Source: Lipingzhangella halophila
Lineage (GTDB): Bacteria; Actinomycetota; Actinomycetes; Streptosporangiales; Streptosporangiaceae
Assembly (NCBI RefSeq): GCF_014203805.1
Contig: NZ_JACHJT010000002.1
Span: 186,001-250,000 of the forward strand
DNA: 64,000 nucleotides
Direction: 5' to 3'
Made by a program: the position numbers and the translations under genes. Below the pieces are notes generated by a model. That model saw only the letters and a program-made list of their open reading frames with translations. It was not told the DNA's origin and searched no databases. Positions 10,322 through 61,470 of the stretch are shown one piece after another; position 1 is the stretch's first letter; each line of letters opens with the position of its first letter.

Positions 10322-11815
10322 TCAGCTGGAGCGCGTGCCGGAAGGGCGCGTGTAACGGTGTTTGACGCCGACGGGGAAATACTCCGGGTCGCCGGCCGGG
10401 AGCAGGGCCGTGTGCGGGAGCTGGCGCTCGGGGGGCACGTAGTTCGCGAACTCGCTGTTGAGGCGGAGCAGCTGGTCCCGGACCGACTCAGCGACCGTCC
10501 GTTGCCGGTCCACCGTGGGCTCCTCGCCGGGCGCCAGTTCGACGACGAGCCGCAACTGCCGGTCGCTGTCGGCGTCCTCCGCGGTCTCCAGGACGAACTT
10601 TCCGGTGACCCAGGCGCTCACCTCCGCCTGTTCCAGCCCCACCGTGACGTTCTCCGGGTAGATGTTCGCTCCGAAGTAGGACACGGTGAACTGGGACCGG
10701 CCGAACACGTACGCGAAAGGCAGCCGCCGGGCGGAGCCCACCTCGTCGGGACCAAGGTCGAGGCCGTGGCGCGCGCAGAACGCGAGCATGTCGCCGTAGG
10801 AGACCAGTCCCCCCTCGTCGGCGATGTGGTACCGGATCAGCGGCACGCCGTTGTCCCCGGAGAACAGCAGCGTCCCCTCGTGGGTCTCGAAGTACCGGTG
10901 GGTGGGGTCGTACTGGACCAGGGTCGGCAGCCGCGACTCGCCGAACAGCTCCCGCGCGGCGCCGGGGTTGGCGGCCAGGAACCGGCGGACACGTACCGAC
11001 AGCGGTGTCTCGTGGCCGAGCACACCGGCGTCCGCGGTTCCGTACAGGGCCGCTGAGTCGTGGTCGGGGTCGGTCATTCCCGACCGCTGGCCCACCAGGG
11101 CGCGCCACTCCTCGCTGAACACCTCTCCGGCCAGCACCAGCTTGAGGGAGTAGCGCGCCCACTCCACTCCGGCGGCGGGTCCGCTGTCGATCACGTCCTT
11201 GACGAACGGGGGGTACCCGAGGAGCACCACCTGGTCGACATGCGGCCCCAGCTCGGGGATCACCCGCAGGATCTCGGCCTTGTTGTTGCCCGGAGCCACC
11301 ACCGTGACCGGGTACCCCTTGGCCGCCAGGTGGCGGACACAGGCTGTGGTGTACAGCCCGCCCACCCAGGTGCCCAGCGGAAAGCACACCACCGCGAGCG
11401 TGCTTCGCTGGTCTGCTGCGAAGCTGTCGGCGAACACCCGCTCGAACTGGGTGGCCACGCTCAGCTCGTCGGTCAAGAAGCGCGGCCAGAATGTGGGCTG
11501 GCCGGTGGAGCCGGAGGACACCGCCACCATGTCGCACCCGTCCATCCGGCCGTCGCGGCACAGTTGCGGCAGCGGGTAGCGGCGGTGGTAGTTCTCCTTC
11601 GAGAGCAGCGGGAGCTGCCGAAAGTCGGTGAACGACCGCACGGTGTCCGGGTCGACATTGTTGGCTCGCAGGAAGTGGCGGTATGCCGGTACCGAGTCCG
11701 CGACCCGGTGGAAGAGGTCGACAACGTGCGCCTCGGGGTCGTCGGGCGCTGGCGGCCGGGTACTGAAGAACTCGCGCAGGGCGGCCACAACCAGGTCGGG
11801 GCGGTCGGCGTCCAT
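10322..11815 (-). CDS. AMP-forming ligase, phenylacetate-CoA ligase (PaaK)-like
   Basis: 497 residues. The adenylate-forming P-loop is SSGSTGQPTFWPR (near residue 97), with further family features ALYGTADAGVLG and the C-terminal NIYPENV segment. PaaK-like enzymes activate aryl or other carboxylates as CoA thioesters, or feed an acyl group to biosynthetic partners. No CoA-pathway neighbours are present, so the substrate is unknown. The ATG at 11815 lacks a clear ribosome binding site; the open frame upstream of it is not protein-like. Confidence 0.82.
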   Translation of the reverse strand: MDADRPDLVVAALREFFSTRPPAPDDPEAHVVDLFHRVADSVPAYRHFLRANNVDPDTVRSFTDFRQLPLLSKENYHRRYPLPQLCRDGRMDGCDMVAVSSGSTGQPTFWPRFLTDELSVATQFERVFADSFAADQRSTLAVVCFPLGTWVGGLYTTACVRHLAAKGYPVTVVAPGNNKAEILRVIPELGPHVDQVVLLGYPPFVKDVIDSGPAAGVEWARYSLKLVLAGEVFSEEWRALVGQRSGMTDPDHDSAALYGTADAGVLGHETPLSVRVRRFLAANPGAARELFGESRLPTLVQYDPTHRYFETHEGTLLFSGDNGVPLIRYHIADEGGLVSYGDMLAFCARHGLDLGPDEVGSARRLPFAYVFGRSQFTVSYFGANIYPENVTVGLEQAEVSAWVTGKFVLETAEDADSDRQLRLVVELAPGEEPTVDRQRTVAESVRDQLLRLNSEFANYVPPERQLPHTALLPAGDPEYFPVGVKHRYTRPSGTRSS

Positions 11816-12064
11816 GCGCCGAGCGTACCGGCCCGGCCTTCGGTCGGGGGCGTGTTCGTACGGGCGGCCCCGCTCAGGAATTCCGGGCCGGGGTCCACTG
11901 TTATGGGGTGTGGGTTCGGCGCGGTAATAAGTGTCCCCGGGCTCCAACAATTTGCCTTCGCGGAATACCGCGCCCTGCCACCCCCGGGTGGCGGGCGGTC
12001 TCGGAACCACGTTGTGCCACGCGCCGAGAGGCGACCGCCGCGTCGAACCCCCAGACCAGTGAGA

Positions 12065-12094
12065 GGCCCCAGCGAGCACCGGCTCGCTGGGGCC
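12065..12094. terminator. 13-bp hairpin terminator after TetR gene
   Basis: GGCCCCAGCGAGC and GCTCGCTGGGGCC pair perfectly around ACCG, just beyond the stop of the minus-strand TetR gene at 12120. The remainder of 11816-12119 shows nothing else recognisable. Confidence 0.75.
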
Positions 12095-12119
12095 CGCTGC
12101 TGTGGGCGGCCGCCGCTGG

Positions 12120-12791
12120 CTAGGTGTCGCGTCGCGTCTTGATCCCCGCCACCACCAGATCCAGCACCTGGTCAAAGTAGGTGTTCTCCACGGCGAGCGC
12201 GTCCGGCACCGACACCGCGGCGGCCAGGGCGTCATCGTGCGCGCCCGAGGGACCTGACCTCATCGCGCGCATCGCGACAGCCGACGTGGCCGCGCCGAGG
12301 ATCTGGTTGGAAACCGCCCGGATCGCCACCGCCTGCGTCTCCTCCCCGCAGCCGCACTCGTGCAGCGCGACGATGACCCGCCGCGACAGGGCGACCGCGT
12401 TCGGGCCGATCAGTGGCCGGGAGCCGGCGAACTCCGCCGCCCAGGTATGGGCGATCAGCGCCGCGTAGAACCGACGGGCGGTCTCCTTGACCGCGGTGTC
12501 CCAGGGTACGTCCGGGCCTGGGAGAACCGCGGCGGCCTCGGCCAGGATCTCGTCCACGGCCAGGTCCACGAGGTCCTCGCGGCGTTGCACGTACCAGTAG
12601 AGGCTCGTCGCGTGCACCCCGAGCTCGGCGGCGACCTTGCGCATCGTCAGCGCGGAGGCGCCGTCGCGGTCGAGCAGCGCGATCGTCGCGGCGACGATGC
12701 GCTCGCGGCTGAGCGCGGGCTGGGATCTGCGCCCCCTCTGCGGTCGGTGGAAGACGCTGTCGAACTGCTGGCCGGGTTGTGGGTCATCCAT
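12120..12791 (-). CDS. TetR-family regulator with TetR_C-type domain
   Basis: 223 residues. The helix-turn-helix lies at about residues 28-75: RERIVAATIALLDRDGASAL, then MRKVAAELGVHATSLYWYVQ. The long C-terminal domain matches the tetracycline-repressor C-terminal class. The gene is divergent from the CPBP protease gene with a 19-bp palindrome between them, so it probably represses both itself and the protease. The inducer is unknown. Confidence 0.92.
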   Translation of the reverse strand: MDDPQPGQQFDSVFHRPQRGRRSQPALSRERIVAATIALLDRDGASALTMRKVAAELGVHATSLYWYVQRREDLVDLAVDEILAEAAAVLPGPDVPWDTAVKETARRFYAALIAHTWAAEFAGSRPLIGPNAVALSRRVIVALHECGCGEETQAVAIRAVSNQILGAATSAVAMRAMRSGPSGAHDDALAAAVSVPDALAVENTYFDQVLDLVVAGIKTRRDT

Positions 12792-12818
12792 TCCAACAGA
12801 ATACTCGGAATCATACTT

Positions 12819-12837
12819 TGTTGGATGATATCCAACA
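12819..12837. promoter_or_regulatory. TetR operator, 19-bp palindrome
   Basis: TGTTGGAT-GAT-ATCCAACA has perfect 8-bp arms. It sits 28 bp upstream of the TetR start and 5-17 bp upstream of the possible CPBP starts, so it must overlap both promoters. A partial copy (TTCCAACAGA) lies at 12791-12800. Confidence 0.75.
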
Positions 12838-12841
12838 GTGT

Positions 12842-13717
12842 ATGTTTCTCCGTATGGCTACTCACTTCGCACCAACACGACCGCACCCCTCCGCACCCGC
12901 AGCCGACCCGGCGCGCACGACGACCCTTGCGCCGCGCGGCCTCACCGCCTTCTTCCTGATCGCCTTCGCTTTCTCCTGGACCGTCTGGTGGGCCGGCTCC
13001 CTCCTGATCGCGGGCGGCAACCCGATGCCTGCCGTGATCATCGGCAGTTTCGGGCCGATGGTGGCGGCGGTAAGCGTCACCGGGGCCACCCAGGGATGGT
13101 CCGGGGTGGGCGCCCTCTTGCGGCGCTACGCCCCCCGACGCAGGGGCGGGTTCACGCCCTACGCGATCGCGGTGGTGGTCGTCCTGGCCATCGCGGCCTC
13201 CGCGACATTCCCGGTGTTCCTGCAGGAAACATCAGTGGACAGCGCCGCACTGGGTGCGGCCCTGCCGCTGCTGCCCGCCCAGTTCCTGCTCATCGCGCTG
13301 GCCGGCGGCGGCAACGAGGAGCTGGGGTGGCGGGGCTTCGCGCTCCCCCGTCTCCAGGGCGCCCTTTCCCCGCTGGCGGCGAACCTGGTGCTCGGATTGA
13401 CCTGGGCGGTCTGGCACGCCCCGCTGGCCGCCATGGCGGGCACCGCCCAGTCGGACATGTACTTCCCCGCCTACGCCCTGCTCTGCGTCGGTCTCACGGT
13501 CGTGCTCGGCTACATCTTCAACTCCGCCCGCGGCGGCGTGTTCGCCACAGTGATCGCGCACGCCGCGATCAACGTCGTCTCAAGCCTCAAGGCCGCCGCG
13601 GTGGGCGACCCCGCCGGGCCGGGCGAGGTCGCGCTCGTCGCCCTCGTCGCGGTGGTCCTCGTGGTCGCGACCCGCGGCCGCCTGGGGGCGCGCCAGCCAA
13701 ACGACGCCGAGCGCTAG
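12842..13717 (+). CDS. CPBP-family intramembrane metalloprotease (CAAX protease-like)
   Basis: 291 residues with about eight hydrophobic segments. The Abi/CPBP motifs are present: EELGWRGFALPRLQ (the EExxxR motif), then WHAPLA, then HAAINVV, which together form the intramembrane metal site. Roles known for the family include prenyl-protein processing, bacteriocin immunity and stress signalling. Starts at 12842 or 12854 both lack a ribosome binding site and follow the operator within a few bases, consistent with a leaderless transcript. Control by the divergent TetR is inferred. Confidence 0.88.
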   Translation: MFLRMATHFAPTRPHPSAPAADPARTTTLAPRGLTAFFLIAFAFSWTVWWAGSLLIAGGNPMPAVIIGSFGPMVAAVSVTGATQGWSGVGALLRRYAPRRRGGFTPYAIAVVVVLAIAASATFPVFLQETSVDSAALGAALPLLPAQFLLIALAGGGNEELGWRGFALPRLQGALSPLAANLVLGLTWAVWHAPLAAMAGTAQSDMYFPAYALLCVGLTVVLGYIFNSARGGVFATVIAHAAINVVSSLKAAAVGDPAGPGEVALVALVAVVLVVATRGRLGARQPNDAER

Positions 13718-15765: not shown

Positions 15766-15803
15766 CGACGCATCCGGGGTCCTGCCGGCCCTAACCTGGA
15801 GCT

Positions 15804-16772
15804 GTGCGTGCGGAGCGGTTGGTGGCGCTGGTGTTCACCCTGCAGAGTCGGCGCAACGCGACTATCGCGGAACTGGCGGAGTCGCTCGGGGTCTCCGAGC
15901 GGACCATGCACCGCGACGTCGCCGCACTGCGGGATCTCGGCGTTCCGGTGTGGACCGAAGCCGGGCGCAACGGCGGCATCCGCCTCGTCGACGGGTGGCG
16001 CACCCGGATCGACGGGCTCACCTCGCGGGAGGCCGTCGCGCTCTTCGCCATGGGCGCTCCGCGGGCGCTCGCCGAGCTCGGGCTCGGCACCGCGGTCTCC
16101 GCGGCGCACGCCAAGGTCTCGGCCACCCTGCCGGCGCCGCTGCGCGAGCAGGCGCAGCACATCTCCGAGCGGTTCCACCTGGACGCCCCGGCGTGGTTCC
16201 GCCGCTCGGAGGAGACCGAGCACCTGGCCGGAATGGCCCGCGCGGTGTGGGAGCAGCGGCGCCTGCGGGTGAGCTACCGCCGCAGCGACCGCACCGTCGA
16301 ACGCGAGCTGGACCCGCTCGGTCTGGTGCTCAAGGCCGGGGTGTGGTATCTCGTGGCCCGCGCGGACGGCAACCTGCGCACCTACCGCGTCAGCCGCGTT
16401 ACCGGCACCGAGGAACTCGACGATCACTTCGAACGGCCGGCCGGGTTCGACCTCGCGGGCTGGTGGGAGCACTCCTCGGCGCAGTTCGAGAAGTCACTGC
16501 AGCGCGTCCCGGTTCGGGTGCGGTTGGGTCCCTTCGGCGCCCGCTCCCTGCCCGCGCTCATCGACACCGACCTCGCAGTCTCGGCCCTCGACAACGCCGG
16601 CCCGCCGGACACCGAGGGGTGGCGCGAGGTCGAGCTGCCGCTGGAGGAGGACTCCCAGATCGCGGCCGGGCAGCTTCTCGCCCTCGGAACCGACGTCGAG
16701 GTCATCGGGCCGCCCGCCGTGCGGGCGGCGTTCGCCGACACCGCACGGCGGATGGCCGACCGTCACCGGTAA
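15804..16772 (+). CDS. WYL-domain transcriptional regulator (YafY/PafC-like)
   Basis: 322 residues from GTG. An N-terminal HTH_11-type helix-turn-helix (ATIAELAESLGVSERTMHRD, about residues 19-38) precedes the WYL domain, whose key stretch is ELDPLGLVLKAGVWYLVARA near 172-191, and a WCX-like C-terminus. WYL regulators respond to ligands or single-stranded DNA and control varied stress genes. The last 10 bp overlap the end of the convergent SDR gene. Confidence 0.9.
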   Translation: MRAERLVALVFTLQSRRNATIAELAESLGVSERTMHRDVAALRDLGVPVWTEAGRNGGIRLVDGWRTRIDGLTSREAVALFAMGAPRALAELGLGTAVSAAHAKVSATLPAPLREQAQHISERFHLDAPAWFRRSEETEHLAGMARAVWEQRRLRVSYRRSDRTVERELDPLGLVLKAGVWYLVARADGNLRTYRVSRVTGTEELDDHFERPAGFDLAGWWEHSSAQFEKSLQRVPVRVRLGPFGARSLPALIDTDLAVSALDNAGPPDTEGWREVELPLEEDSQIAAGQLLALGTDVEVIGPPAVRAAFADTARRMADRHR

Positions 16773-45009: not shown

Positions 45010-45033
45010 GGTTCATTACTTATCTAATGAACC
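45010..45033. promoter_or_regulatory. YtrA-type operator
   Basis: GGTTCATTA and TAATGAACC are perfect 9-bp arms with spacer CTTATC, 13 bp upstream of the GntR start. This fits autoregulation of the ABC operon. Confidence 0.8.
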
Positions 45034-45212
45034 ACAAAACCAGCGAAGTAGCAAGCTCTCGTTGAGCGTGCGGGGCCGCTGTTCCGCGGTGGACCGCGAT
45101 CCGCCCATCCCGCGCGAACGGCATCAGCGAAGGCGCCGGATGGTCGGGGTGGGTGTGTGGCGGTACGGGTGCCCGGTGGTGACGCGTGCGACGAAAGCAG
45201 CAACGAAGGCGG

Positions 45213-45395
45213 CGGGTGGGCCGGCTCGCGGCGGTCGGTGCGGGTGTCCGGAGGTACGGCCTCCAACGAGGCAGCGAGGACGGTGGGTGGGCCAGCCCGC
45301 GGCGGTCGGTGCGGGTGCCCGGAGGTACGGCCTCCAACGAGGCAGCGAGGACGGTGGGTGGGCCAGCCCGCGGCGGTCGGTGCGGGTGCCCGATG
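45213..45395. repeat. 71-bp tandem repeat, about 2.6 copies
   Basis: GCGGTCGGTGCGGGTG recurs at 45231, 45302 and 45373. The intervening sequence (ACGGCCTCCAACGAGGCAGC) is identical in the first two units. This is the forward array of locus B. Confidence 0.9.
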
Positions 45396-45496
45396 GTGAC
45401 GCGGCCAACGGGGGGCGGCGAAGGCCGGTGGTGGGACCCAGTGGGGGTGTCCGTGGCGTCGTTTGCGGTGCTGGGGCGTATCGAGGGTGACTATGG

Positions 45497-45530
45497 GGAC
45501 ATTCTCGGCGCCGAACATGTCCGCACGGTC
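45497..45530. repeat. Dispersed palindromic repeat, copy 3
   Basis: GGACATTCTCGGCGCCGAAC then ATGTCC is symmetric at 22 of 26 positions and is followed by GCACGGTC. It is the most symmetrical of the three copies. Confidence 0.7.
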
Positions 45531-45595
45531 GCCTTCGGTGCCGCGCGGACCCTCGCGCGCGCCTGCCATGTCCGGATTGTGCGGGCCTGTGTGCG

Positions 45596-45651
45596 GATCC
45601 TGAGGATTTCGTTCCCTTACCGCGCGGCAAAGGAACGAAATCCTCAAGATC
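45596..45651. repeat. Inverted-repeat element with GATCCTGAGG motif, copy 3
   Basis: GATCCTGAGGATTTCGTTCC and GGAACGAAATCCTCAAGATC pair over 20 bp with one mismatch, and CCGCGCGG at the centre extends the stem. The arms are the long form of the motif at 26474 and 32711. Confidence 0.8.
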
Positions 45652-45987
45652 AACGCCGAGAATACCCATAAACCGGGCATAGCGGGCGTGTGCGGCACCG
45701 CCAACCGGGACTGGCCCCGAACGGGACGCACCCCCGACACAGGCCCCGACCCACCCGCTGCCTTCGATGCCGCTTTCGTCAGGCGCGCCACCGGCGGGCA
45801 CCCGTACCGATTACCGGGGGCCGGCCCATCCACCGTCCTCGCTGCTCTCGTTGCGTGCGCCACCACCGGGCACCCGCAGCGACCACCACGGGCCGGTACA
45901 CCCACTGCCCTCGTCGGGCGGCCACCACCGGGCACCCGCACCGATCACCGCAGGAGCCGGTCCACCACCGACCTTCGCCGTCCGGGC

Positions 45988-50988: not shown

Positions 50989-52491
50989 TCAGATCTCCGT
51001 GAGGTCGGCCGAGCTGAGGATCCACACGCAGATGACGACGAGGCCGAGCAGCCCGAGCCAGGCCCACACCATCATGGGGCGGGAGGGCAGGAACTCGCGC
51101 TCCGCCGGCGACGTGAAGTTGTCCCTGACCGCCTTGATGTTCAGCCAGTAGATGACCGGCGAGAACAGCAGGGCCAGGACCGAGGCGAGCTGCACCACCA
51201 GCACGGGCTCCGGGAGGCCGATGATGATGGCCGAGCCGGCGACGATCCACACGATCTGGAAGCCGCGGTAGAGCCACCCGCGCACCTTCGGGGTGTCCCA
51301 CGCCGTGCGCAGCCGCACACAGCACTCCACGAAGATGCGGGGCTGGCCGTCGAAGTAGGTCAGCGTCGTGGAGAACAGTGCCGCCACTCCGCCAGCGATG
51401 ATGACCGGGAAGACCCACTGCCCGAACGTGTCGGTGTACATCCGCGCGATGGTCGCGCCCATCTCGGATTTCTCCGGCACCAGCCCGATCGGGTGCAGCA
51501 CCACCGCGCCGACGATCAGGAACGCCAGCCCGGTGAGGCCCGAGATGACGTAGCTGATGTTCATGTCGCGCTTGAACAGCTTGAAGTTGTTGCGCAGGTA
51601 GTTCGGCGCGAGCTCGACCCGGTGGCCCTGGCGCTCCAGGGCGCGGACCCGGGCCATCCCGGCCCCCTTGGCCACCGCCCAGTTCGACTGCATCGGCGAG
51701 ATCTCCACGGTGGTGGGGAAGTACCCGAACATCGCGCCCACCAGCACCAGCGCGCCGGCGGGCGCCAGCGCCGGGACCAGATTCGCGACGTACTCATCCG
51801 GGGACGGCATGCGCAGCACAAACGCCACCAGCACGGCGACGCAGAAGACGATGATGCACAGCTTGACGACCGTCTCCAGCGCCGCGTACTTGCCGGTCCA
51901 CAGGATGGCGACGCACGCCAGCAGGACCAGGATCCCCCAGGCCGGCAGCGGCAGGAACGGGAACGCCGCCCAGATCATGGCCGCGGTGCCAAGGGCGCGC
52001 CCGGCTGTGCTGAATGTGTTCGCGACGGAGTTGAAGAGCAGGTACCACAACGGCCACTGGCCGTATCCGCGCCCGACGCGCTGGTAGGCCTCGATGATGC
52101 TCTCGCCGCGCACCACCGTGTACCGGTGCGCGAACTCGAAGGCGCAGTACTTGAGGAGGTATGCGACCGGGATGATCCACAGCAGGGTGTAGCCCCACTG
52201 CGCGCCGGCGGTCGGCGCGTGGATGATGTGGCTGGAGCCGATCCCGGTCATGGCGGCCGCGATTCCGGGCCCCATCGCTTTCCACGTCTGGCGGAAGCCG
52301 GTTCCCGGCGCTTCTAGCCGCACCGGTACCGCCTCGGACGGGGTGTCGCGCCGGGTGCCGCCGGTACCCGCGGAGCCGCCCTCTTCGGGGGAGCCGGGCG
52401 CGGAGGTGGCCGACGGGTCCCGGCCGCTGGCGGCGTCGGTGCCGACGTCGTTGCTGTCGTCTTCGTTCGGGTCATCGATGCTGGAATGCAT
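50989..52491 (-). CDS. Nramp-fold transporter lacking the canonical metal-binding motifs
   Basis: 500 residues from ATG with GGAG eight bases upstream. A polar Asp/Ser/Gly-rich leader of about 60 residues precedes eleven to twelve membrane segments. Helix 1 reads GPGIAAAMTGIGSSHIIHAP, where metal-transporting Nramps have DPGN. The helix 6 region reads FGYFPTTVEISPMQSNWAVA, with no MPH motif. The fold assignment rests on helix 1 context and GAQWGYTLLW. Divergence from a catabolic operon suggests an organic substrate rather than Mn or Fe (inference). Confidence 0.8.
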   Translation of the reverse strand: MHSSIDDPNEDDSNDVGTDAASGRDPSATSAPGSPEEGGSAGTGGTRRDTPSEAVPVRLEAPGTGFRQTWKAMGPGIAAAMTGIGSSHIIHAPTAGAQWGYTLLWIIPVAYLLKYCAFEFAHRYTVVRGESIIEAYQRVGRGYGQWPLWYLLFNSVANTFSTAGRALGTAAMIWAAFPFLPLPAWGILVLLACVAILWTGKYAALETVVKLCIIVFCVAVLVAFVLRMPSPDEYVANLVPALAPAGALVLVGAMFGYFPTTVEISPMQSNWAVAKGAGMARVRALERQGHRVELAPNYLRNNFKLFKRDMNISYVISGLTGLAFLIVGAVVLHPIGLVPEKSEMGATIARMYTDTFGQWVFPVIIAGGVAALFSTTLTYFDGQPRIFVECCVRLRTAWDTPKVRGWLYRGFQIVWIVAGSAIIIGLPEPVLVVQLASVLALLFSPVIYWLNIKAVRDNFTSPAEREFLPSRPMMVWAWLGLLGLVVICVWILSSADLTEI

Positions 52492-52630
52492 AGCAGATCT
52501 CCATAGGCCCAGAGCGGACGCGTGTACCCGCTGCGGCCCTCGCAGGGGATTCGTTGACCAGCGGCCCTGCCCGAGTGGCGACGGTGGCCGAAGCGGCGCG
52601 AGACAGGACGTCAGGTGGAGAGCGGCTCCA

Positions 52631-52660
52631 TGTAACGCTTTTCTGTAATGGGTTACAGAA
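52631..52660. promoter_or_regulatory. LacI-type operator candidate, transporter side
   Basis: TTCTGTAA-TGGG-TTACAGAA (52641-52660) has perfect 8-bp arms and is preceded by TGTAACGCTT. It matches the reverse complement of the site at 52911-52937 at 23 of 27 positions. Confidence 0.75.
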
Positions 52661-52910
52661 CTTAGGTCATGACCAGCGAGAGTGTCAATGGTCACACACC
52701 CCCTATCTTGACCAGCCGGATCCTTGGTCCGCGCGAACGACTCGGCCCGCACGGGGCGGCACAGGCCGCTCGCCGCACCGGTCCCCCCGCAAGGGCCTCA
52801 CCTCGACCAACCCACCCCGAGCCTCCGGCCGTCCCCGCGGTGCGGGGCCCGCGCGGCGGGGACGGCCACCGAACGCGAACCCATTGACACCGCATTAGGC
52901 GCCGAATTAA

Positions 52911-52937
52911 TGTAAAGCGTTACAGAAAAGCATTACA
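52911..52937. promoter_or_regulatory. LacI-type operator candidate, operon side
   Basis: TGTAAAGCGTTACAGAAAAG then CATTACA contains TGTAA-AGCG-TTACA with a central CG. Its reverse complement matches the site at 52631. The LacI gene at the end of the operon is the natural candidate regulator. Confidence 0.75.
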
Positions 52938-53085
52938 TCGCCCTCGGTGCGCACTACCGAACCCGATGGGAGCTCCCCGGCGGCCCGATCCGGCGGAGAG
53001 CCCGGAAGCGCAGGTGGCAGGCACCAACGTGGGCGGCTCACACGCTGGTCGAGAATCAAGAACGCGTCACTGAAGGGTGCGGTTG

Positions 53086-53979
53086 ATGGCTGACAAGGAC
53101 TATGTGCACTCCGACTCCGACGAGGAGCGCAAGCACAACATCCTGGCGCTCTCCTACGCCGAGGTCGCCGAACGCCTGAGCGAGAGCGGGCAGGACGTCG
53201 TCCTGATCCCCCTGGGCAGCACGGAGAAACACGGTGCGCACATCCCGCTCGGCACCGACAGCTACGTCACAATGGAAGTCGTCGAGCGCACCGCCAAGGC
53301 GGCCGACGTCGTGTACTCGCCGCTCGTGCCGTTCGGCTACTCGCCGCACCACATGGGGCGGCACCTCGAAGGGGCCGGCACGGTCACGTTGCGCGCCGAG
53401 ACCTACCGGCGCATCATGAACGATGTCGCGCGCAGCCTGATCTTCCACGGCTTCCGAAAGATCATCTTCGTGAGCCACCATGGCTCGAACACCAAGCCGA
53501 TCGACGAGATCATGCGCCAGTTGCGCTACGAGACCGGCGCCTACATCTCCTACTACAAGACCCCGACCGAGCGCGACGCCAACGCGGTCCAGGACCTCTT
53601 CGACAACCCGCCGGAGGAGACGCCGGGGTGGCACTCCAGCGAGCTGGAGACCTCAGTCCTGATGGCCACGGGGGACGGCCTGGTCAACATGGACCGCGCC
53701 GTTGAGGACCGGGCGCACGCTCCCGAGTACATGACCGACGCCTTCTCCAAGACCGACGGCACCGGGACGGTGAAGTTCCGCGGGTCGGAGAACATCTGGG
53801 TACCCATGGAGCACCACGAGTACTGCGACACCGCCGTGATCGGCAACCCGTTCCGCTCCACCAAGGACAAGGGCCTGGCCATGCTCGACCGGATGGCCGA
53901 GCACCTGACCGGCTACGTCGAGGAGGTCCGGCAGTTCAAGGTGGAGGTCACCCACAGCGACTACCCCGAGCGGGCATGA
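53086..53979 (+). CDS. Creatininase-family amidohydrolase
   Basis: 297 residues; the ATG follows AAGGG, with a GTG three codons earlier as alternative. Metal-binding motifs of the family are present: PLGSTEKHGAHIPLGTDSY (about residues 45-63), FGYSPHHMG and FVSHHGSNTKP. Members hydrolyse cyclic or linear amides such as creatinine, or act in cofactor maturation (MftE). As the first gene of a catabolic operon it may open a lactam or cleave an amide to release the acid used by later enzymes (inference). Confidence 0.88.
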   Translation: MADKDYVHSDSDEERKHNILALSYAEVAERLSESGQDVVLIPLGSTEKHGAHIPLGTDSYVTMEVVERTAKAADVVYSPLVPFGYSPHHMGRHLEGAGTVTLRAETYRRIMNDVARSLIFHGFRKIIFVSHHGSNTKPIDEIMRQLRYETGAYISYYKTPTERDANAVQDLFDNPPEETPGWHSSELETSVLMATGDGLVNMDRAVEDRAHAPEYMTDAFSKTDGTGTVKFRGSENIWVPMEHHEYCDTAVIGNPFRSTKDKGLAMLDRMAEHLTGYVEEVRQFKVEVTHSDYPERA

Positions 53980-54009: not shown

Positions 54010-54669
54010 ATGCCTGAGGTGGACGCCGCGACCTTGCGGCTGCTGCGCGAGGACCTGGTCGCCGTCTCCCGGCACGGCTACGAACGCGGCCTGGTGCCGG
54101 GCGTCAGCGGCAACAACAGCCTGCGGGTGCCGGAGACCGACCTGGTGCTGATCAAGGCGACCGGTGGCTGCAAGGGCGAGATGGACATCTCGGACACGGT
54201 GCTGATGAACCTCGACGGGGAGGTGCTCGACGAGGGGCGGACGCCGTCCAAGGAGTGGCGCTGGCACGCGGCGGTCTACCGCACGCGGCCCGAGGTGGGC
54301 GGGATCGCCCACCTGCACCCGCCGCACTCGGTGGCGTTCGCCGTCGCCAACCAGCCCGTTCCGCTGGTGCACACGGCGGGGCGGGCGCACCTGCGCCGGG
54401 TCGCCCTGGTCGACCTGCTCCCCGCGGGCTCGGCCGAGCTGGCCGACGCGGTCGTCGCGGCGTTCTCCGATCCCGAGGTGCGCGCCGCGGTGATGCGCGA
54501 GCACGGCACCATCACGGTGGGGCCGGACCTGCGCACGGCCCACTACCGCACCGAGTACCTGGAGGACTGCGCCAAGGTGGCGCTGATGGCCGCGCGGATC
54601 CAGGGCACCACCCCGGACTCGCTGCCGCTCGCGGTCGACACCGCTCCCCTGGCCGAGGTGACCGGATGA
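54010..54669 (+). CDS. Class II aldolase/adducin family protein
   Basis: 219 residues from ATG with AGGAGG upstream. Motifs are VPGVSGNNSLRVPE, the phosphate-site-like LIKATGGCKGEMD, and the metal ligands in GGIAHLHPPHSVAFA with a late REHGTITVG. The family includes fuculose-phosphate aldolase, ribulose-phosphate 4-epimerase and decarboxylases. The neighbouring Tm-1-like gene and dehydrogenase suggest cleavage or decarboxylation of a sugar-acid type intermediate (inference). It overlaps the next gene by 4 bp. Confidence 0.9.
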   Translation: MPEVDAATLRLLREDLVAVSRHGYERGLVPGVSGNNSLRVPETDLVLIKATGGCKGEMDISDTVLMNLDGEVLDEGRTPSKEWRWHAAVYRTRPEVGGIAHLHPPHSVAFAVANQPVPLVHTAGRAHLRRVALVDLLPAGSAELADAVVAAFSDPEVRAAVMREHGTITVGPDLRTAHYRTEYLEDCAKVALMAARIQGTTPDSLPLAVDTAPLAEVTG

Positions 54670-55934
54670 GCGGCCTCGTCGTTCTGCTCGCCACGATGGA
54701 CACCAAGGCCGCCGAGGTCGAGTACCTCCGGGCCGAGCTCCTCGGGCGCGGCCACCCGGTTCGGGTGGTCGACGTCGGACTGACCCCGGTCGACGAAGAC
54801 GTGGACGCCCCGGCGCGGGTGGTCGCCGCGATGGCCGGCCAGGAGCTGGACGGACTGCGCGCGACCGCCCGCAGGGACGAGGCCATGGCGGTCATGGCGT
54901 CCGGCGCCCGCGAGGTGCTGACCGGGTGGCACTCCGCGGGGGAGCTCGGCGGGGTGCTCGCGGTCGGTGGCAACCAGGGGACTTCCATCGCCGCGGCGGC
55001 GATGCGGGACCTCCCCTTCAGCGTGCCGAAGCTGATCGTGTCCACGGTGGCGTCGGGCAACGTGCGCGAGTACGTCGGCGACAGCGACGTGACACTGATG
55101 TTCTCGGTCGCCGACCTGCTGGGTGGGGCCAACCCGGTGGTGGCCGGCGTGCTGCGGCGGGCCGCCGCGGCGATGTCCGGCATGGTGGGCGCGGGCGCCG
55201 GCGCGGACATGGCGGGCGCCCGCGACGGCCGGCCGATGGTCGCGCTGACCGCGTTCGGCAACACCCACGACGCCGTGACGACCGCGATGTCGACCCTGTC
55301 CGACGCCGGCATCGGCATCAACTCGGTCCCGTTCCACGCGTCGGGCGCGTGCGGGTCGGCCATGGAGCGGCTGATCGACGACGGCCTGTTCCACGGAGTC
55401 CTCGACCTCACCACGCACGAGCTGCTCGGCGAGCTGTTCCCGGACGACGTCTACACGCCCGTGCGCCCGGGCCGGCTCACCGCGGCCGGCCGGGCCGCGA
55501 TCCCCCAGGTGGTGGCCCCCGGCGGGCTGGAGTACTTCTGCTTCGGCGGGCCCGACACGATCCCCCCGGCTCTCCGCGACCGTCCGGTGCACCACCACAA
55601 CCCGAACAACACCAACGTGCGGGCCTCCGCCGACGAGCTGGCAGCGGTGGCCGGGACCATGGCGGAGCGGCTGAACGCGTCGAAGGGGCCGGTCGCCGTC
55701 CTCGTTCCGACGTTGGGCTGGTCGGTGGTCGGCAGCCCCGGAGGGGTGCTGCACGACCCCGCCGCCAACAGCGCGTTCACGAAGACGCTGCGCACCCGGC
55801 TGGCGCCGCACGTCGTGCTGCGCGAGCTCGACACCACGATCAACGACCCGGTCTTCGCGACCACGGCAGCGGAGACGCTGCTGGAGCTGCTGCGGGACCA
55901 CACGAGTGTCCGATTCGAGCACCAGGCGGGGTAA
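54666..55934 (+). CDS. Tm-1-like ATP-binding domain protein (UPF0261)
   Basis: 422 residues starting at ATGA in overlap with the aldolase stop. The pattern is typical: LVVLLATMDTKAAEVEYLRA at the N-terminus, LAVGGNQGTSIAAAAMRDLP, STVASGNVREYVGDSDVTLM, TAFGNTHDAVTTAM and late VPTLGWSVVGSPGG. The family is named after the plant Tm-1 virus-inhibitor protein; bacterial members occur in catabolic operons with unknown reactions. Its place between an aldolase and a dehydrogenase supports an enzymatic step here. Confidence 0.9.
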   Translation: MSGLVVLLATMDTKAAEVEYLRAELLGRGHPVRVVDVGLTPVDEDVDAPARVVAAMAGQELDGLRATARRDEAMAVMASGAREVLTGWHSAGELGGVLAVGGNQGTSIAAAAMRDLPFSVPKLIVSTVASGNVREYVGDSDVTLMFSVADLLGGANPVVAGVLRRAAAAMSGMVGAGAGADMAGARDGRPMVALTAFGNTHDAVTTAMSTLSDAGIGINSVPFHASGACGSAMERLIDDGLFHGVLDLTTHELLGELFPDDVYTPVRPGRLTAAGRAAIPQVVAPGGLEYFCFGGPDTIPPALRDRPVHHHNPNNTNVRASADELAAVAGTMAERLNASKGPVAVLVPTLGWSVVGSPGGVLHDPAANSAFTKTLRTRLAPHVVLRELDTTINDPVFATTAAETLLELLRDHTSVRFEHQAG

Positions 55935-55965
55935 CCCGGCGCCCCGCCGGAAGAGGGTGGCAAGT

Positions 55966-57072
55966 ATGGCCAAGACCAACGACATCGCCGCGGCGGGCGC
56001 CGCGGCCGACGTACCCGAGACCATGCGGGGGGCGGTCCTCTACGGCCCCGACGACATCCGCGTGGTCGAGCGCCCGGTACCGGCGCCGGGCCCCGGAGAG
56101 GTGCTGGTGCGGGTCGCGATGTGCGGCACCTGCGGGACGGACCTGAAGATCCTCGGGGGCCACTTCCCGCAGACCCCGCCGTTCGGGGAGTACATTCCCG
56201 GCCACGAGTGGACCGGCACCGTGGCCGCCCTGGGCGAGAACGTCGACGAGTTCCAGGTCGGCGACAAGGTGTGCATCGAGGCGCACGCCGGCTGCGGGAG
56301 CTGCGACAACTGCCTCGTCGGGCGCTACACGGCGTGCCTGAACTACGCCAACCCCTCGAAGGGGCACCGCGCCACCGGCATGACCATGAACGGCGGATTC
56401 GCGGAGTACGCCGTGCACAACGCGAAGGCGCTGTACCGGATGCCCGACTCGGTGTCCTTCGAGGACGCCGTTCTCATCACCACGGCCGGCACCGGGCTGT
56501 ACGGGCTCGATGTCGCGGGCGGCTACGTCGCCGGGCAGTCCGTTGTCGTGTTCGGCCCCGGGCCGGTCGGCCTGATGACCGTCCAGTTGTGCAAGCAGAT
56601 GGCCGCGCGCCAGGTGATTCTGGTCGGCACCCGGCCGTCCCGGCTGGAGGTGGGCAAGCGCCTGGGTGCCGACCACGTGATCAACGCCAGGGAGACCGAC
56701 GTCGCCGAGGAGGTCCTCCGGCTCACCGAGGGCGAAGGCGCCGACCTGAGCATCGAGGCGTCCGGCGGCACCGACTGCCCGCAGCAGGCGATCGAGGGGA
56801 CCAAGCGCGGTGGCAAGATCCTGCTGGTCGCGTTCTACCCGGGGCAGGTCACCCTGGACCTGAGCGCCGCCATCCGCAAGGACATCACGATGTACACCTC
56901 CCGTGGCGAGGGCGGCAACAACGTCAAGCGGGCCGTCGCCATGGCGTCGGAGGGCAAGCTCCGCGGCGCGGAGCTGGTCACGCACCGGTTCCCGCTGGAG
57001 GACATCACCGAGGCGTTCCGGGTGGTGCGGGAACGGGACGGCGACCCGATGAAGGTCGTGCTTATTCCCTAG
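55966..57072 (+). CDS. Zinc-dependent alcohol dehydrogenase (MDR family)
   Basis: 368 residues from ATG. Catalytic zinc region MCGTCGTDLKILGGHFP and PGHEWTG, structural zinc lobe AGCGSCDNCLVGRYTAC with four Cys, and Rossmann motif VVVFGPGPVGLMTVQLC (about 200-216). It resembles threonine and sorbitol dehydrogenases, which oxidise polyols or hydroxy acids. It follows the Tm-1-like gene by 31 bp in the same operon. Confidence 0.93.
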   Translation: MAKTNDIAAAGAAADVPETMRGAVLYGPDDIRVVERPVPAPGPGEVLVRVAMCGTCGTDLKILGGHFPQTPPFGEYIPGHEWTGTVAALGENVDEFQVGDKVCIEAHAGCGSCDNCLVGRYTACLNYANPSKGHRATGMTMNGGFAEYAVHNAKALYRMPDSVSFEDAVLITTAGTGLYGLDVAGGYVAGQSVVVFGPGPVGLMTVQLCKQMAARQVILVGTRPSRLEVGKRLGADHVINARETDVAEEVLRLTEGEGADLSIEASGGTDCPQQAIEGTKRGGKILLVAFYPGQVTLDLSAAIRKDITMYTSRGEGGNNVKRAVAMASEGKLRGAELVTHRFPLEDITEAFRVVRERDGDPMKVVLIP

Positions 57073-57150: not shown

Positions 57151-58164
57151 ATGAACATCCGAGACGTCGCCGCCGCGGCGGGGGTATCGGTGGCCACGGT
57201 GTCGCGGGTGCTCAGCCCCAAGCCGGGCAGCCAGACGGTGCGTCCGGAGACTCGCCAGCGCGTGCTGGAGGTCGTCGACCGGGTCGGCTACCGGCCGAAC
57301 GACCTCGCCCGGGCGCTGCTGCAGGACCGCACCGCGACGGTGGGGCTGGTGCTTCCGGACATCTCCAACCCCTACTACCCGCCGCTGGTCCGCGGGGTGG
57401 AGGACGCCGCCTCCACCCTCGGCTACCGGGTGATGCTCTGCAACACCGACCGCGACGAGGAGAAGACGGCCACCTACGTCGACACGCTGATCAAGACGCG
57501 GGTCGACGGCATCATCATCGCGGGCGGCAGCACCACCATGCCCATGCTGCGTGACGTGTTCGAGCCGTACCGCACCAAGGTGGTGGTGGTCGGGCGGCAC
57601 GAGCTGGAGTATCCCTCGATCCAGGTGGACAACGTCGCCGCGATGGGGGAGGTCATCGGGTACCTGACCGGCCTGGGCCACCGCCGGATCGGCTTCATCG
57701 CCGGTCCGGCGTCCTCGATCACCGTCCAGGACCGGGTCGAGGGGTACCGCGCGGCTCTGCGGGCCGCGGGTATCGGCTATAACGAGGACCTGGTCCGCGA
57801 AGGCGACCTGCAGGAGCAGAGCGGGTACGACGTCGCCGGCGAGCTGGCGGCGCAGCCCACCCGGCCCACCGCGCTCGTGGCGGCGAACGACCGGATGGCG
57901 GTCGGCGCCATGGCGGCTCTGACCGACGCCGGCCTGCGGGTACCCGCCGACGTCTCGCTTGTCGGGTTCGACGACGTCTCGCTGGCGAGCTACATCCGAC
58001 CCGCGCTGACCACCGTGTCCGTACCCACCTACGACATGGGCGGCGCGGCCATGGAACTGCTCGCGCGCGAGTTCGAGGAGGGCGGCGGCACCCCCGAGCC
58101 CGGGGCCCGCGTGCTCTCGACCACGCTCATGGTCCGGGAAAGCTGCGCGGCTCCCCCGCGGTAG
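57151..58164 (+). CDS. LacI-family regulator of the second catabolic locus
   Basis: 337 residues, full family length. Helix-turn-helix NIRDVAAAAGVSVATVSRVL at the N-terminus, hinge PNDLARALLQ, and effector domain with LVLPDISNPYYPPLVRGVED and VPADVSLVGFDDVSLASYIR. It is the last gene of the operon, 78 bp after the dehydrogenase. It is the natural candidate to bind the two sites in the divergent control region, in response to a pathway intermediate (inference). Confidence 0.92.
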   Translation: MNIRDVAAAAGVSVATVSRVLSPKPGSQTVRPETRQRVLEVVDRVGYRPNDLARALLQDRTATVGLVLPDISNPYYPPLVRGVEDAASTLGYRVMLCNTDRDEEKTATYVDTLIKTRVDGIIIAGGSTTMPMLRDVFEPYRTKVVVVGRHELEYPSIQVDNVAAMGEVIGYLTGLGHRRIGFIAGPASSITVQDRVEGYRAALRAAGIGYNEDLVREGDLQEQSGYDVAGELAAQPTRPTALVAANDRMAVGAMAALTDAGLRVPADVSLVGFDDVSLASYIRPALTTVSVPTYDMGGAAMELLAREFEEGGGTPEPGARVLSTTLMVRESCAAPPR

Positions 58165-58264: not shown

Positions 58265-58392
58265 GGGTCGCGCCAGGCGGATGTACCGCCACCCAGCGTT
58301 CCGATGCGGGTGGCGCCGACACACCCCAGGGGTTTGTAACGGTTCGGTCGCTCTGGGTTGGTTACTGGTCGGTCGGCCCTACTTTGTGGCCT

Positions 58393-61300
58393 ATGCCAGT
58401 GGAGTTCCTGACCGATGACGAGGCGACCGCTTACGGGCGGTACGCGGGGCCGCCGTCGCGGGCGGATCTGGAGCGGGTGTTCTTCCTCGATGACGAGGAC
58501 CGGGCGCAGGTCGCGCAGCGGCGCGGCCAGCACATGAAGCTCGGGTTCGCGCTCCAGCTGGTGACGGTTCGGTGGCTGGGGACGTTTCTGGAGGACCCGC
58601 TGGACGTGCCGGGCACGGTGCTGGAGTTCGTCGCCGAGCGGTTGGAGATCGAGGACCCCTCCCAGGTGAAGCGGTATGCCGAGCGGCGGGAGACGCCGTT
58701 CGATCATCAGCGCGACATCCGGCGGGTGTACGGGTGGAGGGACTTCGCCTCGGCGGAGGCCGAGTTCGCGGCGTGGGTGGCGGCCAGGTCGTGGACGTCG
58801 GGGGACGGCCCGAAGGCGATCTTCACCGAGGGAGTGGGGTGGCTGGCCGAGCGCAAGGTGCTGCTGCCGGGCGTGACGACGCTGGCCCGGCTGGTGGCGA
58901 AAGTCCGCGACGACACGACGGAGCGGTTGCGGGGTGCGCTGGAGGGGCTGCTGACCCTCGGCCAGCGCTACGTGCTGGATCAGCTGCTGGAGGTTGCGGC
59001 CGGGTCGCGGGTGTCGGATCTGGAGCGGTGGCGCAAGGGCGTGGCGCCGCGCGCGTCCGGCCCGACGATCATCAAGGCGCTGGACCAGGTGGCCGAGATC
59101 GAGGGCTTGGAACTGGCGGACCTGGGGGCGGAGGCGCTGGTGCCACCGCGCCGGTTGGGCGAGCTCGCCAAGTACGGGATGCGGGCCGACGCCTCGGCGC
59201 TGCGCCGCCATCCGGACGGCCGCCGGCTGGCGACACTGCTGGCCACGGTCCGCCACCTGGAGTCCAAGTCGGTCGACGACACCCTGGAGCTGCTCGATCT
59301 GCTGATGACGACCGAGCTGGTGAACAAGGCGCACAACGCCTCCGACAAGGAGAAGGTCCGCAAGCATCCCAAGCTGGCCAAATCCGCGGCCAGGCTGGCG
59401 GTCGCGGTGGAGGCGCTGTTCGCCTCCGAGGGCTGGGGCGGCTCCGAGGAACGGGTGCGGGTCGCCCAGGTGTGGGAGGCGATCGAGGCGGTCACGTCCC
59501 GCACCGAGCTGCGTGCCGCGCTGGTCCTGGTGAACGAGAACGCAGGGCCGGCGGAGGCCGCTGTCCCCGATGACTGGCGCTCAGAGCTGGTGGGCCGCTA
59601 CACGACGGTGTCGGGGTTCTTGAAGGTGCTGCCGGAGGTGATCGAGTTCGGCGCGAACGCCGAGGGCGCGCCGGTGCTGGAGGCGATGAAGTGCCTGCCG
59701 GGGGTGCTGGCCCACCGCAGCCGTCTGAGCGCCCCGCTGATCCCCGGCCGCCTCATCGACGCCGGCGTGGTGAACGGCCCGTGGAAGCGCCTGGTGTTCG
59801 GGCACCCGGCCCGCGAGGACGGATCGGTGAACCGGCACGCCTACGCCTTCTGCGTGCTGGAGCGGTTTTGGCGCGGACTGAAGCGCCGCGAGATCTACGC
59901 CGGCGCATCCACCAAGTGGCGCAGCCCCCAAGCGGAACTGCTGGAAGGCGCCCAGTGGGAAGCGATCCGGCCTGAGGCCCTCACCGCGCTCAGCCTGCCC
60001 GCGAGCCCGGATGAGCTGCTGGCCGAGCACTCCCGCGCCCTGGACACCGCGCTGCGCCAGGTCGGCGGGCGGCTGATCGCCAACCCCGACGTCGGGGTGG
60101 ACGAAGCGGGCAAGATCCACCTGAGTGGGGCGAAGGCGGTCGAGGAACCGCCGTCGCTGGTGGACCTGCGGGCCCGCACCACCGCGATGCTGCCGCGCGT
60201 GGAGCTGCCCGAGGTGGTCCTGGAGGTCATGTCGTGGGTGCCGGAGCTGGCCGAGGCGTTCACCGCTGTCTCCGGCGGCCGGTCCCGGCTGAAGGACCTT
60301 CCGGTCTCGGTCGCGGCCTGCCTGACGGCCCACTCGCTCAACGTCGGGTACCGGCCGATCGCCAAGAAGGGCATCGAGGCGCTGGAACGCTCACGGCTGT
60401 CGCACGTCTATCAGAACTACTTCCGGCCCGAGACGCTGAGCTCGGCGAACGCGCCACTGGTCGACAAGCAGGCCGGGCTGCCGCTGGCTCAGGCGTGGGG
60501 CGGCGGTCTGGTCGCCGCGGTCGACGGGATGCGGTTCGTCGTCCCGGTCCCGGCCGCGTTCGCCCGCCCCAACCGTAAGTACTTCGGCTCCAAGCGCGGA
60601 ATGACCTGGCTGAACGCTATGAACGACCGCGGCATGGGACGCGGTGCGAAGGTGGTGTCGGGGACGATCCGCGACTCCCTGCACATGGTCGACGTCCTCT
60701 TCGGTCTGGACGGCGGTGAACTCCCCGAGGTCGTGGTGTCCGACACCGGCTCCTACTCCGACCTGGTGTTCGGCCTGCTGGAGCTGCTGGGCATCTCCTA
60801 CCGGCCTGCGCTGGCGGACCTGCCCGACCAGAAGGGGTGGCGGATCAGCCCGTCCGCCGACTACGGCCCCTTGAACACCTTCGCCCGGGGAAAGGTCGAC
60901 CTGCGCAAGATCCGCCGCAGCTGGGAGGACATCCTCCGTGTGGTCGCCTCGATCTACACCGGCACCGTCCGGACCTACGACGTGGTCACCATGCTCCAGC
61001 GCGACGGCCACCCCACCGCCCTCGGCGAGGCGATCGCCTCCTACGGCCGGATCTTCAAGACCCTGCACATCCTGCACTACATCGACGTGGACGAGACCTA
61101 CCGGCGCGACATCAAGGACATCCGCAACCTCCAGGAGAACCGCCATTCCCTCGCCCGCAAGATCTGCCACGGCAAGAAGGGCGAGCTTTACCACCGCTAC
61201 GAACGCGGTCTGGAGAACCAGCTCGGCGCGCTCGGTCTCGTCCTCAACTGCGCCACCCTCTGGACGACCGTCTACCTGGATGCCGCTGTGGGCCGGCTGA

Positions 61301-61470
61301 AAGCCCAGGGCTACCCGGTCCGGGAGGAGGACATGGCTCGGCTGTCCCCGTTCGTCCACTCCCACCTGGGCGTGCACGGGACCTACACCTTCGCCCTCCC
61401 CGAGCTGGCCCCCGGCGCCATCCGCGACCTGCGCGATCCTGATACCGCTGAAGACGACGACGAGATCTGA
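58393..61470 (+). CDS. tnpA: Tn3-family transposase
   Basis: 1025 residues, the normal full length. The N-terminal DUF4158-type domain begins EFLTDDEATAYGRYAGPPSR. The DDE catalytic core shows the first Asp in AAVDGMRF (near residue 707), the second in VVSDTGSYSD (near 782) and the Glu in NLQENRHSLARKI (near 914), followed by LGALGLVLNCATLW. ATG at 58393 is preferred over a TTG nine bases earlier. It looks intact and potentially active. Confidence 0.96.
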   Translation: MPVEFLTDDEATAYGRYAGPPSRADLERVFFLDDEDRAQVAQRRGQHMKLGFALQLVTVRWLGTFLEDPLDVPGTVLEFVAERLEIEDPSQVKRYAERRETPFDHQRDIRRVYGWRDFASAEAEFAAWVAARSWTSGDGPKAIFTEGVGWLAERKVLLPGVTTLARLVAKVRDDTTERLRGALEGLLTLGQRYVLDQLLEVAAGSRVSDLERWRKGVAPRASGPTIIKALDQVAEIEGLELADLGAEALVPPRRLGELAKYGMRADASALRRHPDGRRLATLLATVRHLESKSVDDTLELLDLLMTTELVNKAHNASDKEKVRKHPKLAKSAARLAVAVEALFASEGWGGSEERVRVAQVWEAIEAVTSRTELRAALVLVNENAGPAEAAVPDDWRSELVGRYTTVSGFLKVLPEVIEFGANAEGAPVLEAMKCLPGVLAHRSRLSAPLIPGRLIDAGVVNGPWKRLVFGHPAREDGSVNRHAYAFCVLERFWRGLKRREIYAGASTKWRSPQAELLEGAQWEAIRPEALTALSLPASPDELLAEHSRALDTALRQVGGRLIANPDVGVDEAGKIHLSGAKAVEEPPSLVDLRARTTAMLPRVELPEVVLEVMSWVPELAEAFTAVSGGRSRLKDLPVSVAACLTAHSLNVGYRPIAKKGIEALERSRLSHVYQNYFRPETLSSANAPLVDKQAGLPLAQAWGGGLVAAVDGMRFVVPVPAAFARPNRKYFGSKRGMTWLNAMNDRGMGRGAKVVSGTIRDSLHMVDVLFGLDGGELPEVVVSDTGSYSDLVFGLLELLGISYRPALADLPDQKGWRISPSADYGPLNTFARGKVDLRKIRRSWEDILRVVASIYTGTVRTYDVVTMLQRDGHPTALGEAIASYGRIFKTLHILHYIDVDETYRRDIKDIRNLQENRHSLARKICHGKKGELYHRYERGLENQLGALGLVLNCATLWTTVYLDAAVGRLKAQGYPVREEDMARLSPFVHSHLGVHGTYTFALPELAPGAIRDLRDPDTAEDDDEI

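Follow-up and report, generated by a model that had tools for sequence, protein, structure and literature searches.

What does a transporter of the Nramp family carry when the residues expected to hold its metal have been replaced? The question is raised by a gene in the 64,000-nucleotide stretch of Lipingzhangella halophila DNA analysed here (the window). A first-pass annotation of this DNA had described the gene without stating its strand, together with a catabolic operon on the other side of the promoter. The limits given for the gene are exact and its strand is minus, and the operon is present, with genes for a hydrolase, an aldolase, a UPF0261 protein, a dehydrogenase and a LacI-type regulator running divergently from the transporter gene:

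50989..52491, minus strand: P0001, Nramp-related transporter (clade P) of 500 amino acids, with GSSH in helix 1 and TTVEISPMQSNW in helix 6
53077..53979, plus strand: creatininase-family hydrolase (CREA; PF02633), scoring less than the creatininase and IolN models require
54010..54669, plus strand: class II aldolase/adducin family protein (PF00596)
54666..55934, plus strand: UPF0261 / Tm-1-like protein, whose start codon overlaps the aldolase stop
55906..57072, plus strand: zinc-type dehydrogenase, threonine dehydrogenase/IolM-like, under the model cut-offs
57151..58164, plus strand: LacI-family regulator, the likely reader of the double operators described below

The P0001 frame runs from an ATG at 52491 to a stop at 50989. 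GTG codons lie further upstream in the same frame at 52752 and 52695, but both sit upstream of the transporter-side operator, which makes 52491 the better start. The protein opens with a polar leader of 73 residues ahead of the GPG of helix 1. The first-pass annotation had put this leader at about 60 residues and thought it unusual; it is real, but leaders of 38 to 93 residues precede helix 1 in the other clade P members with a plausible start, and leaders of 46 to 84 residues are found in five proteins of a second Nramp-related family, NrQ. These ranges leave out L118 (221 residues, start probably called too early) and L033 (22 residues, start set at the match boundary); the value for L049 is 76.

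P0001 belongs to the Nramp superfamily in the wide sense, as had been proposed. It scores 69.8 bits against the Pfam Nramp model PF01566 (cut-off 29.8) and 96.7 bits against NCBIfam NF037982, ‘Nramp family divalent metal transporter’ (cut-off 50), and falls far under the cut-offs of two MntH/Nramp models. Of the solved structures, EleNRMT (7qia, E 3e-9) is closest to P0001 in sequence. The AlphaFold model of P0001 is poor (mean pLDDT 52.8, from a 9-sequence alignment that one scan of viral contigs, which returned nothing, did not deepen), too poor for placing side chains. A Foldseek search with this model returns only Nramps down to rank 16 (E 2.3e-6 to 6e-5), with the canonical MntH/Nramp proteins (DraNramp, 8e5s, 8e60) at the top, EleNRMT among the best matches and a YcsG model at rank 19.

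The two motifs on which the first-pass annotation turned, GIGSS in helix 1 and EISPMQS in helix 6, are both present. In an alignment with 11 canonical rows, D-P-G-N of helix 1 corresponds to G85-S86-S87-H88 of P0001 and M-P-H of helix 6 to T261-V262-E263. The helix-6 register is unsure, with M-P-H falling on E263-I264-S265 or S265-P266-M267 in our own reading of two other alignments, and none of the three alignments recovers an MPH. DPGN and MPH are therefore absent rather than merely shifted, for MPH across the three alignments. The proton-pathway glutamate E134 of DraNramp aligns with R165, in a register that a nearby gap makes less secure than the helix-1 register, and all 16 clade P members have Arg there. 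The roles of these metal-site and proton-pathway residues in canonical Nramps are described in PMC12873925. G85, S87, H88, T261 and E263 are likewise identical in all 16 members, so the clade P site is conserved and not decayed. The helix-1 Asp is also gone from the other non-canonical rows, save six NRMT-like rows and three VDIGD rows; helix 1 reads GNDAGG in EleNRMT and GIGSSH in P0001, which does not have the EleNRMT-like Asp motif.

Loss of DPGN and MPH is in itself nothing new. According to PMC12873925, it is a known feature of the Nramp-related proteins, a paraphyletic and mostly uncharacterised assemblage outside the canonical clades A-C. P0001 resembles them in being homologous to Nramps, in lacking DPGN and MPH and in having its proton-pathway residues replaced. 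Judged by its sequence, P0001 is an Nramp-related protein and not a canonical Nramp.

A phylogeny, which had been proposed as a check, agrees with this placement. In a 65-row maximum-likelihood tree, which represents NRMTs by six rows named NRMT-like from the helix-1 motif and lacks EleNRMT itself, the 11 canonical DPGN rows group together (100/100) to the exclusion of P0001. P0001 instead lies in clade P (16 rows including P0001, 100/100), separate from the NRMT-like rows. Its sister is the protein from Allosalinactinospora (L027; 100/100), followed by L028 (100/99) and then L029 (93/98), both of which are located in formyl-CoA-transferase (Frc) operons; the deeper branching order within the clade is unsupported by this tree. 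Clade P is rare, being found in 6/394 genomes of the class (E<=1e-45) and 3/397 genomes of the Ancylobacter order, centre genome included. Its actinobacterial hosts are Allosalinactinospora, a Nocardiopsaceae bacterium, other genomes of the window's family and Haloechinothrix, and its alphaproteobacterial hosts are Ancylobacter, a Rhizobiales MAG, and Skermanella and Azospirillum, in the latter two on plasmids. At the eight alphaproteobacterial loci examined (L030-L036 and L053) neither the window operon nor the Frc operon adjoins the gene. In L030, L031, L032 and L034 a gene for an FdhF/YdeP oxidoreductase is divergent from it (family scanned in L030; the other three copies are 93-95% identical), and in L033, L035, L036 and L053 the neighbours are varied.

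The gap of 585 bp between P0001 and the catabolic operon contains sequence elements that suggest joint control of the two transcripts:

52630..52666, no strand: inverted copy of the double operator-like element, transporter side
52661..52688, minus strand: promoter-like site of the P0001 gene, TTGACA at 52688 and a weak -10 with 3 mismatches (consensus match only)
52884..52911, plus strand: promoter-like site of the catabolic operon, TTGACA, 16-nt spacer, ATTAAT (consensus match only)
52902..52938, no strand: double operator-like element, catabolic operon side, TGTAAAGCGTTACA with 0 mismatches and a second box with 2

The operator-like elements form two inverted arms of 37 nt, 78% complementary, one by each promoter, and each arm comprises two TGTAAnGCnTTACA-like boxes. 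The 64 kb contain four boxes that match TGTAANGCNTTACA with <=2 mismatches, every one of them in this gap, against 0.13 expected, a count that is post hoc because the pattern was taken from the same intergenic region. Better support for operators comes from L027, where the sequence has the same inverted arrangement with 30-nt arms that are 93% complementary (L027:7640-7669 on the operon side and L027:7429-7458 on the transporter side). Each promoter-like site points at its own gene and runs into its operator-like element. That box pairs adjoin both promoter-like sites indicates one regulator for both transcripts, and we infer that the LacI protein encoded at 57151-58164 is the reader. Boxes with <=2 mismatches were not found ahead of the related operons L128, L136, L137 and L138.

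The enzymes of the window operon leave its pathway unnamed: among the NCBIfam matches listed, only the UPF0261 protein exceeds a model cut-off, that of a ‘hypothetical protein’ subfamily. In related operons other carriers stand in place of P0001. The Tct and lactate-permease families are carboxylate carriers. Outside the pair formed by the window and L027, CREA proteins at least about 65% identical occur on Thermus plasmids (6 records) and in three actinobacterial genomes of another family; by E value, CREA is found in 2/200 family genomes (E<=1e-60) and in 5/346 phylum genomes (E<=1e-75), the latter including the window's own and one at only 47% with a different layout. Five of the relatives examined have an intact operon, and their carrier is of the tripartite tricarboxylate type in three, a lactate permease in one and an ABC system in one. 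On the Thermus plasmids L128 and L145, the genes for CREA, UPF0261 and aldolase are followed by tripartite tricarboxylate genes (identities to the window 64.8% for CREA, 37% for aldolase, 44% for UPF0261 and 48% for dehydrogenase; the TctB place of L145 is annotated hypothetical). L136 (CREA 82%) has TctCBA, L137 (CREA 79%) has an L-lactate permease with an MFS gene further on, and L138 (CREA 78%) has an ABC set with an NMT1-like binding protein. Because L128 and L145 are alike throughout, the independent cases of carrier exchange number at most four. No Nramp-like gene adjoins any of the five operons (tblastn with P and NrQ queries, E<=1e-8). The comparison leaves out L129, L130 and L131 (UPF0261 relatives that have no annotated creatininase gene next to them or lack annotation), L139 (47% CREA, other layout), L144 (broken) and the Thermus records H57-H59. 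In L144, which is from Thermus thermophilus, a transposase interrupts the creatininase/UPF0261 operon (L144:7868-9214).

A second line of evidence comes from the other actinobacterial clade P genes, which come after genes for a thiamine enzyme, a formyl-CoA transferase and an ATP-grasp CoA ligase. The L028 Frc protein exceeds its equivalog cut-off (666.9 against 504.2) and its closest structures are of YfdW. The thiamine enzyme resembles HACL and oxalyl-CoA decarboxylase and lies under the cut-offs of the models listed. Its scores support neither a true oxalyl-CoA decarboxylase (256.2 against a cut-off of 739.4) nor a true AcHACL (363.8 against 600), and the position of AcHACL E493, whose role is given in PMC13327070, is Ile in the thiamine enzyme of L088 by our own reading of the alignment. 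Because the thiamine enzyme is under both cut-offs, oxalate is not proved as the substrate.

The gene after the CoA ligase was surveyed in 45 Frc loci, 40 picked by hand from the 78/200 Frc-positive family genomes and five chosen for carrying P. GC3-based gene calling erred, returning ‘no frc’ for 13/45 loci, and the counts were therefore redone by tblastn with 15 reference proteins, which detects only genes resembling these. The first recognised gene is NrQ in 32 loci, NrP (the clade P gene) in 7 and MFS in 4, with 2/45 unreadable; without the five loci chosen for P the counts are NrQ 32, NrP 2, MFS 4 and unread 2. NrQ is taken as Nramp-related from its 446-bit match to NF037982; it has no Pfam match at E<=0.001, and it aligns with P only weakly by hhalign with shallow alignments (probability 27, E 0.00067). 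NrQ groups elsewhere than P in the tree, so two Nramp branches have filled the same slot. Two of the four slot MFS proteins were scanned, and their best matches are to the L-lactate and oxalate/formate families, under cut-offs. Extra MFS genes flank many Frc loci, which may therefore have more than one carrier.

Frc also co-occurs with clade P at the level of genomes. It is present (E<=1e-100) in 6/6 family genomes with P against a background of 78/200, and in 5/5 alphaproteobacterial genomes with P against 50/170, where both background samples include some clade P genomes. Three of the five alphaproteobacteria are Ancylobacter or a close relative, and the counts therefore represent few independent lineages rather than 11 cases. 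The window's own genome keeps an Frc operon with NrQ (L088, where NrQ spans 11758-13359), and so does that of L027 (L089, assigned to the same genome as L027 on 3,894 identical bases). This suggests that P0001 belongs to a branch that has moved to a new operon.

The Frc loci differ in one further respect. A TerC/Alx gene, of a metal-homeostasis family (361.8 against a cut-off of 246.4 in L088), is present in 29/32 NrQ loci, 1/7 NrP loci and 0/4 MFS loci. That TerC/Alx tracks NrQ and not the substitute MFS suggests that NrQ imports metal, either alone or with its acid. No yybP-ykoY riboswitch reached the gathering score in the eight loci searched. Between NrQ and TerC, L088 encodes a 190-aa protein without Pfam or NCBIfam match (L088:13359-13931), and an ORF of similar size occupies this place in several other NrQ loci. 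L047 has a Guanidine-III riboswitch (L047:16134-16196, 57.8 bits) ahead of a 104-aa ORF (15790-16104) that resembles a small multidrug-resistance protein.

Other Nramp-family proteins encoded with catabolic operons provide precedents that point in two directions. C. glutamicum needs PxpT, a YcsG-like protein, to grow on 5-oxoproline; the evidence is from growth and complementation, and the authors leave metals possible (PMC13274462). YcsG of B. subtilis, also called MntG, is a low-homology Nramp-family protein of a catabolic operon whose overproduction raises cellular Mn (PMC10448178). MumT of A. baumannii, encoded in a urea-carboxylase operon, is required for the cell to accumulate Mn (PMC5050338). 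P0001 is like PxpT and YcsG in being an Nramp-family secondary carrier whose gene accompanies a catabolic operon, but its locus has no 5-oxoprolinase genes. It is also like MumT in being a low-homology Nramp-family protein in a catabolic operon, and for MumT the published evidence concerns Mn. YcsG/MntG and MumT were compared with P0001 by their published descriptions rather than by sequence. Apart from the groups of NRMT and MntG, those described in PMC12873925 are wholly uncharacterised, whereas for P0001 the operon, the operators and the carrier exchange make a case for organic acids. Our search of the open literature found no uptake assay of a clade P protein and nothing linking Nramp with oxalate and formyl-CoA transferase, nor any such title under broader terms; for Nramp-related and catabolic together, it turned up only work on manganese in Lactococcus.

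We consider it likely, with a probability of about 0.72, that P0001 is a secondary transporter with the LeuT fold and an Nramp origin, no longer selective for transition metals, and that it takes up the small (hydroxy)carboxylate on which the divergent operon acts. The first-pass annotation had offered an organic solute or a different ion. Of the possible readings, that of an organic solute is now supported best, on the indirect evidence of shared operators, carrier exchange and Frc co-occurrence; an ion is still conceivable since YcsG/MntG and MumT are reported to raise cellular Mn. What is new for P0001 is indirect evidence on the class of substrate, from the operators, from carrier exchange in two operons, from Frc co-occurrence and from the Arg at the E134 position. 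In the mechanism that we envisage, a LacI-family repressor would read both operator-like elements, and entry of the substrate or an intermediate would cause it to release both promoters. The substrate anion would bind where canonical Nramps hold the metal, and the positive or polar residues H88, R165, Q268 and N270 may help to bind it. The older actinobacterial substrate of clade P was probably that of the Frc operon, oxalate or a 2-hydroxy acid, with the P0001 branch having changed operon.

Creatininase-family, class II aldolase and zinc-dependent dehydrogenase enzymes use metals. It is thus conceivable that P0001 is co-regulated with the operon because it imports a divalent metal, Mn2+ or Mg2+, through an altered site and so provides the operon's metalloenzymes with their cofactors; H88 and E263 could bind a metal. 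We regard this as unlikely, because the alignments place no DPGN, MPH or E134 in P0001 and an Arg at the E134 position, because carboxylate or other organic carriers occupy the slot in relatives of both operons, and because P0001 stands apart from the NRMT-like rows; membership of PF01566 and NF037982, the YcsG/MntG and MumT precedents (PMC10448178 and PMC5050338) and the Mg2+-moving Nramp relative EleNRMT (PMC12873925) weigh on the other side. That P0001 is a passenger, a redundant Nramp from a mobile element whose neighbourhood is meaningless, seems to us highly improbable: a 1028-aa ORF at 58384-61470, after the LacI gene, looks like a Tn3-type transposase, but L027 has the same operon with the same operators and the site residues are strictly conserved across clade P. 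A resolvase-like ORF comes next in L054, and the window's contig measures 967,692 bases.

Oxalate and hydroxy acids chelate metals, and P0001 could take in its substrate bound to a metal, as metal-oxalate or metal-hydroxyacid for instance, in which case both literatures would be partly right. The association of TerC/Alx with NrQ and not with MFS would fit such a complex, but TerC accompanies NrP in just one of seven loci, no TerC-like gene was noticed among the genes at the window locus and the yybP-ykoY search was negative, so that for P0001 itself we think this decidedly unlikely. A broader version, in which P and NrQ are both carboxylate importers and at least NrQ works through a metal complex, with TerC/Alx re-exporting the metal, is a speculative possibility that we think unlikely. 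If true, part of a metal transporter family would have become metal-carboxylate carriers, and the Mn and 5-oxoproline results for YcsG and PxpT would be reconciled.

Import of a carboxylate by P0001 and its relatives would have consequences for annotation and physiology. Public records label clade P proteins ‘Nramp family divalent metal transporter’ (hits H1 and H2), and if clade P and NrQ carry carboxylates this divalent-metal label is wrong for whole branches. Soil actinobacteria would then have a way of taking up oxalate or related acids that has been overlooked. The dispute over YcsG, as an importer of Mn or of 5-oxoproline, becomes testable in relatives with a clean operon context, and clade P offers a way to study how the metal site of a LeuT fold is rebuilt for an anion.

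A general rule, that all Nramps with a helix-1 G motif lie in catabolic operons, proved too weak when neighbours (<=2 genes each side) were compared between 16 G-motif and 16 canonical loci. The G-motif set comprised 12 loci from the class sample and four from the window's genome, chosen by hand and leaving out the near-duplicates L203, L204, L208, L210 and L213 and the partial L222; the canonical set was 16 of 18 loci with a called Nramp gene. GntR, LacI and DHDPS each match 2/62 G-motif neighbours, with the window's own genome supplying both GntR matches, one LacI and one DHDPS, and all three are absent from the best 25 of 74 families for the 61 canonical neighbours.

The window's genome encodes several other Nramp-related paralogues. 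One, with AIGPGF in helix 1 (G000:C1:3230431-3231435; L140:9240-10538), lies directly upstream of a gene for a 1220-aa hydantoinase/oxoprolinase fusion and has a GntR-FCD regulator on its other side. From this gene context it is possibly a 5-oxoproline carrier paired with the other kind of 5-oxoprolinase; as a PxpT it is a candidate by context, since it matches no PDB chain and the hydantoinase/oxoprolinase neighbour is what speaks for it. Two more have neighbours of sugar-acid type, namely an enolase-superfamily (MR_MLE) gene with GntR-FCD (G000:C1:5680617-5681633; L142:8890-10296) and a DHDPS-family gene with LacI (G000:C2:772186-773223; L143:8348-9811). Another is situated between genes for a BNR-repeat protein and a TRAP-type DctP binding protein (G000:C1:2123584-2124414; L141:8665-10059). 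Elsewhere in the window, at 45020-45940, short GC-rich repeat units are common to several overlapping ORFs, flanked by genes for a GntR-like regulator and a LuxR-type ATPase.
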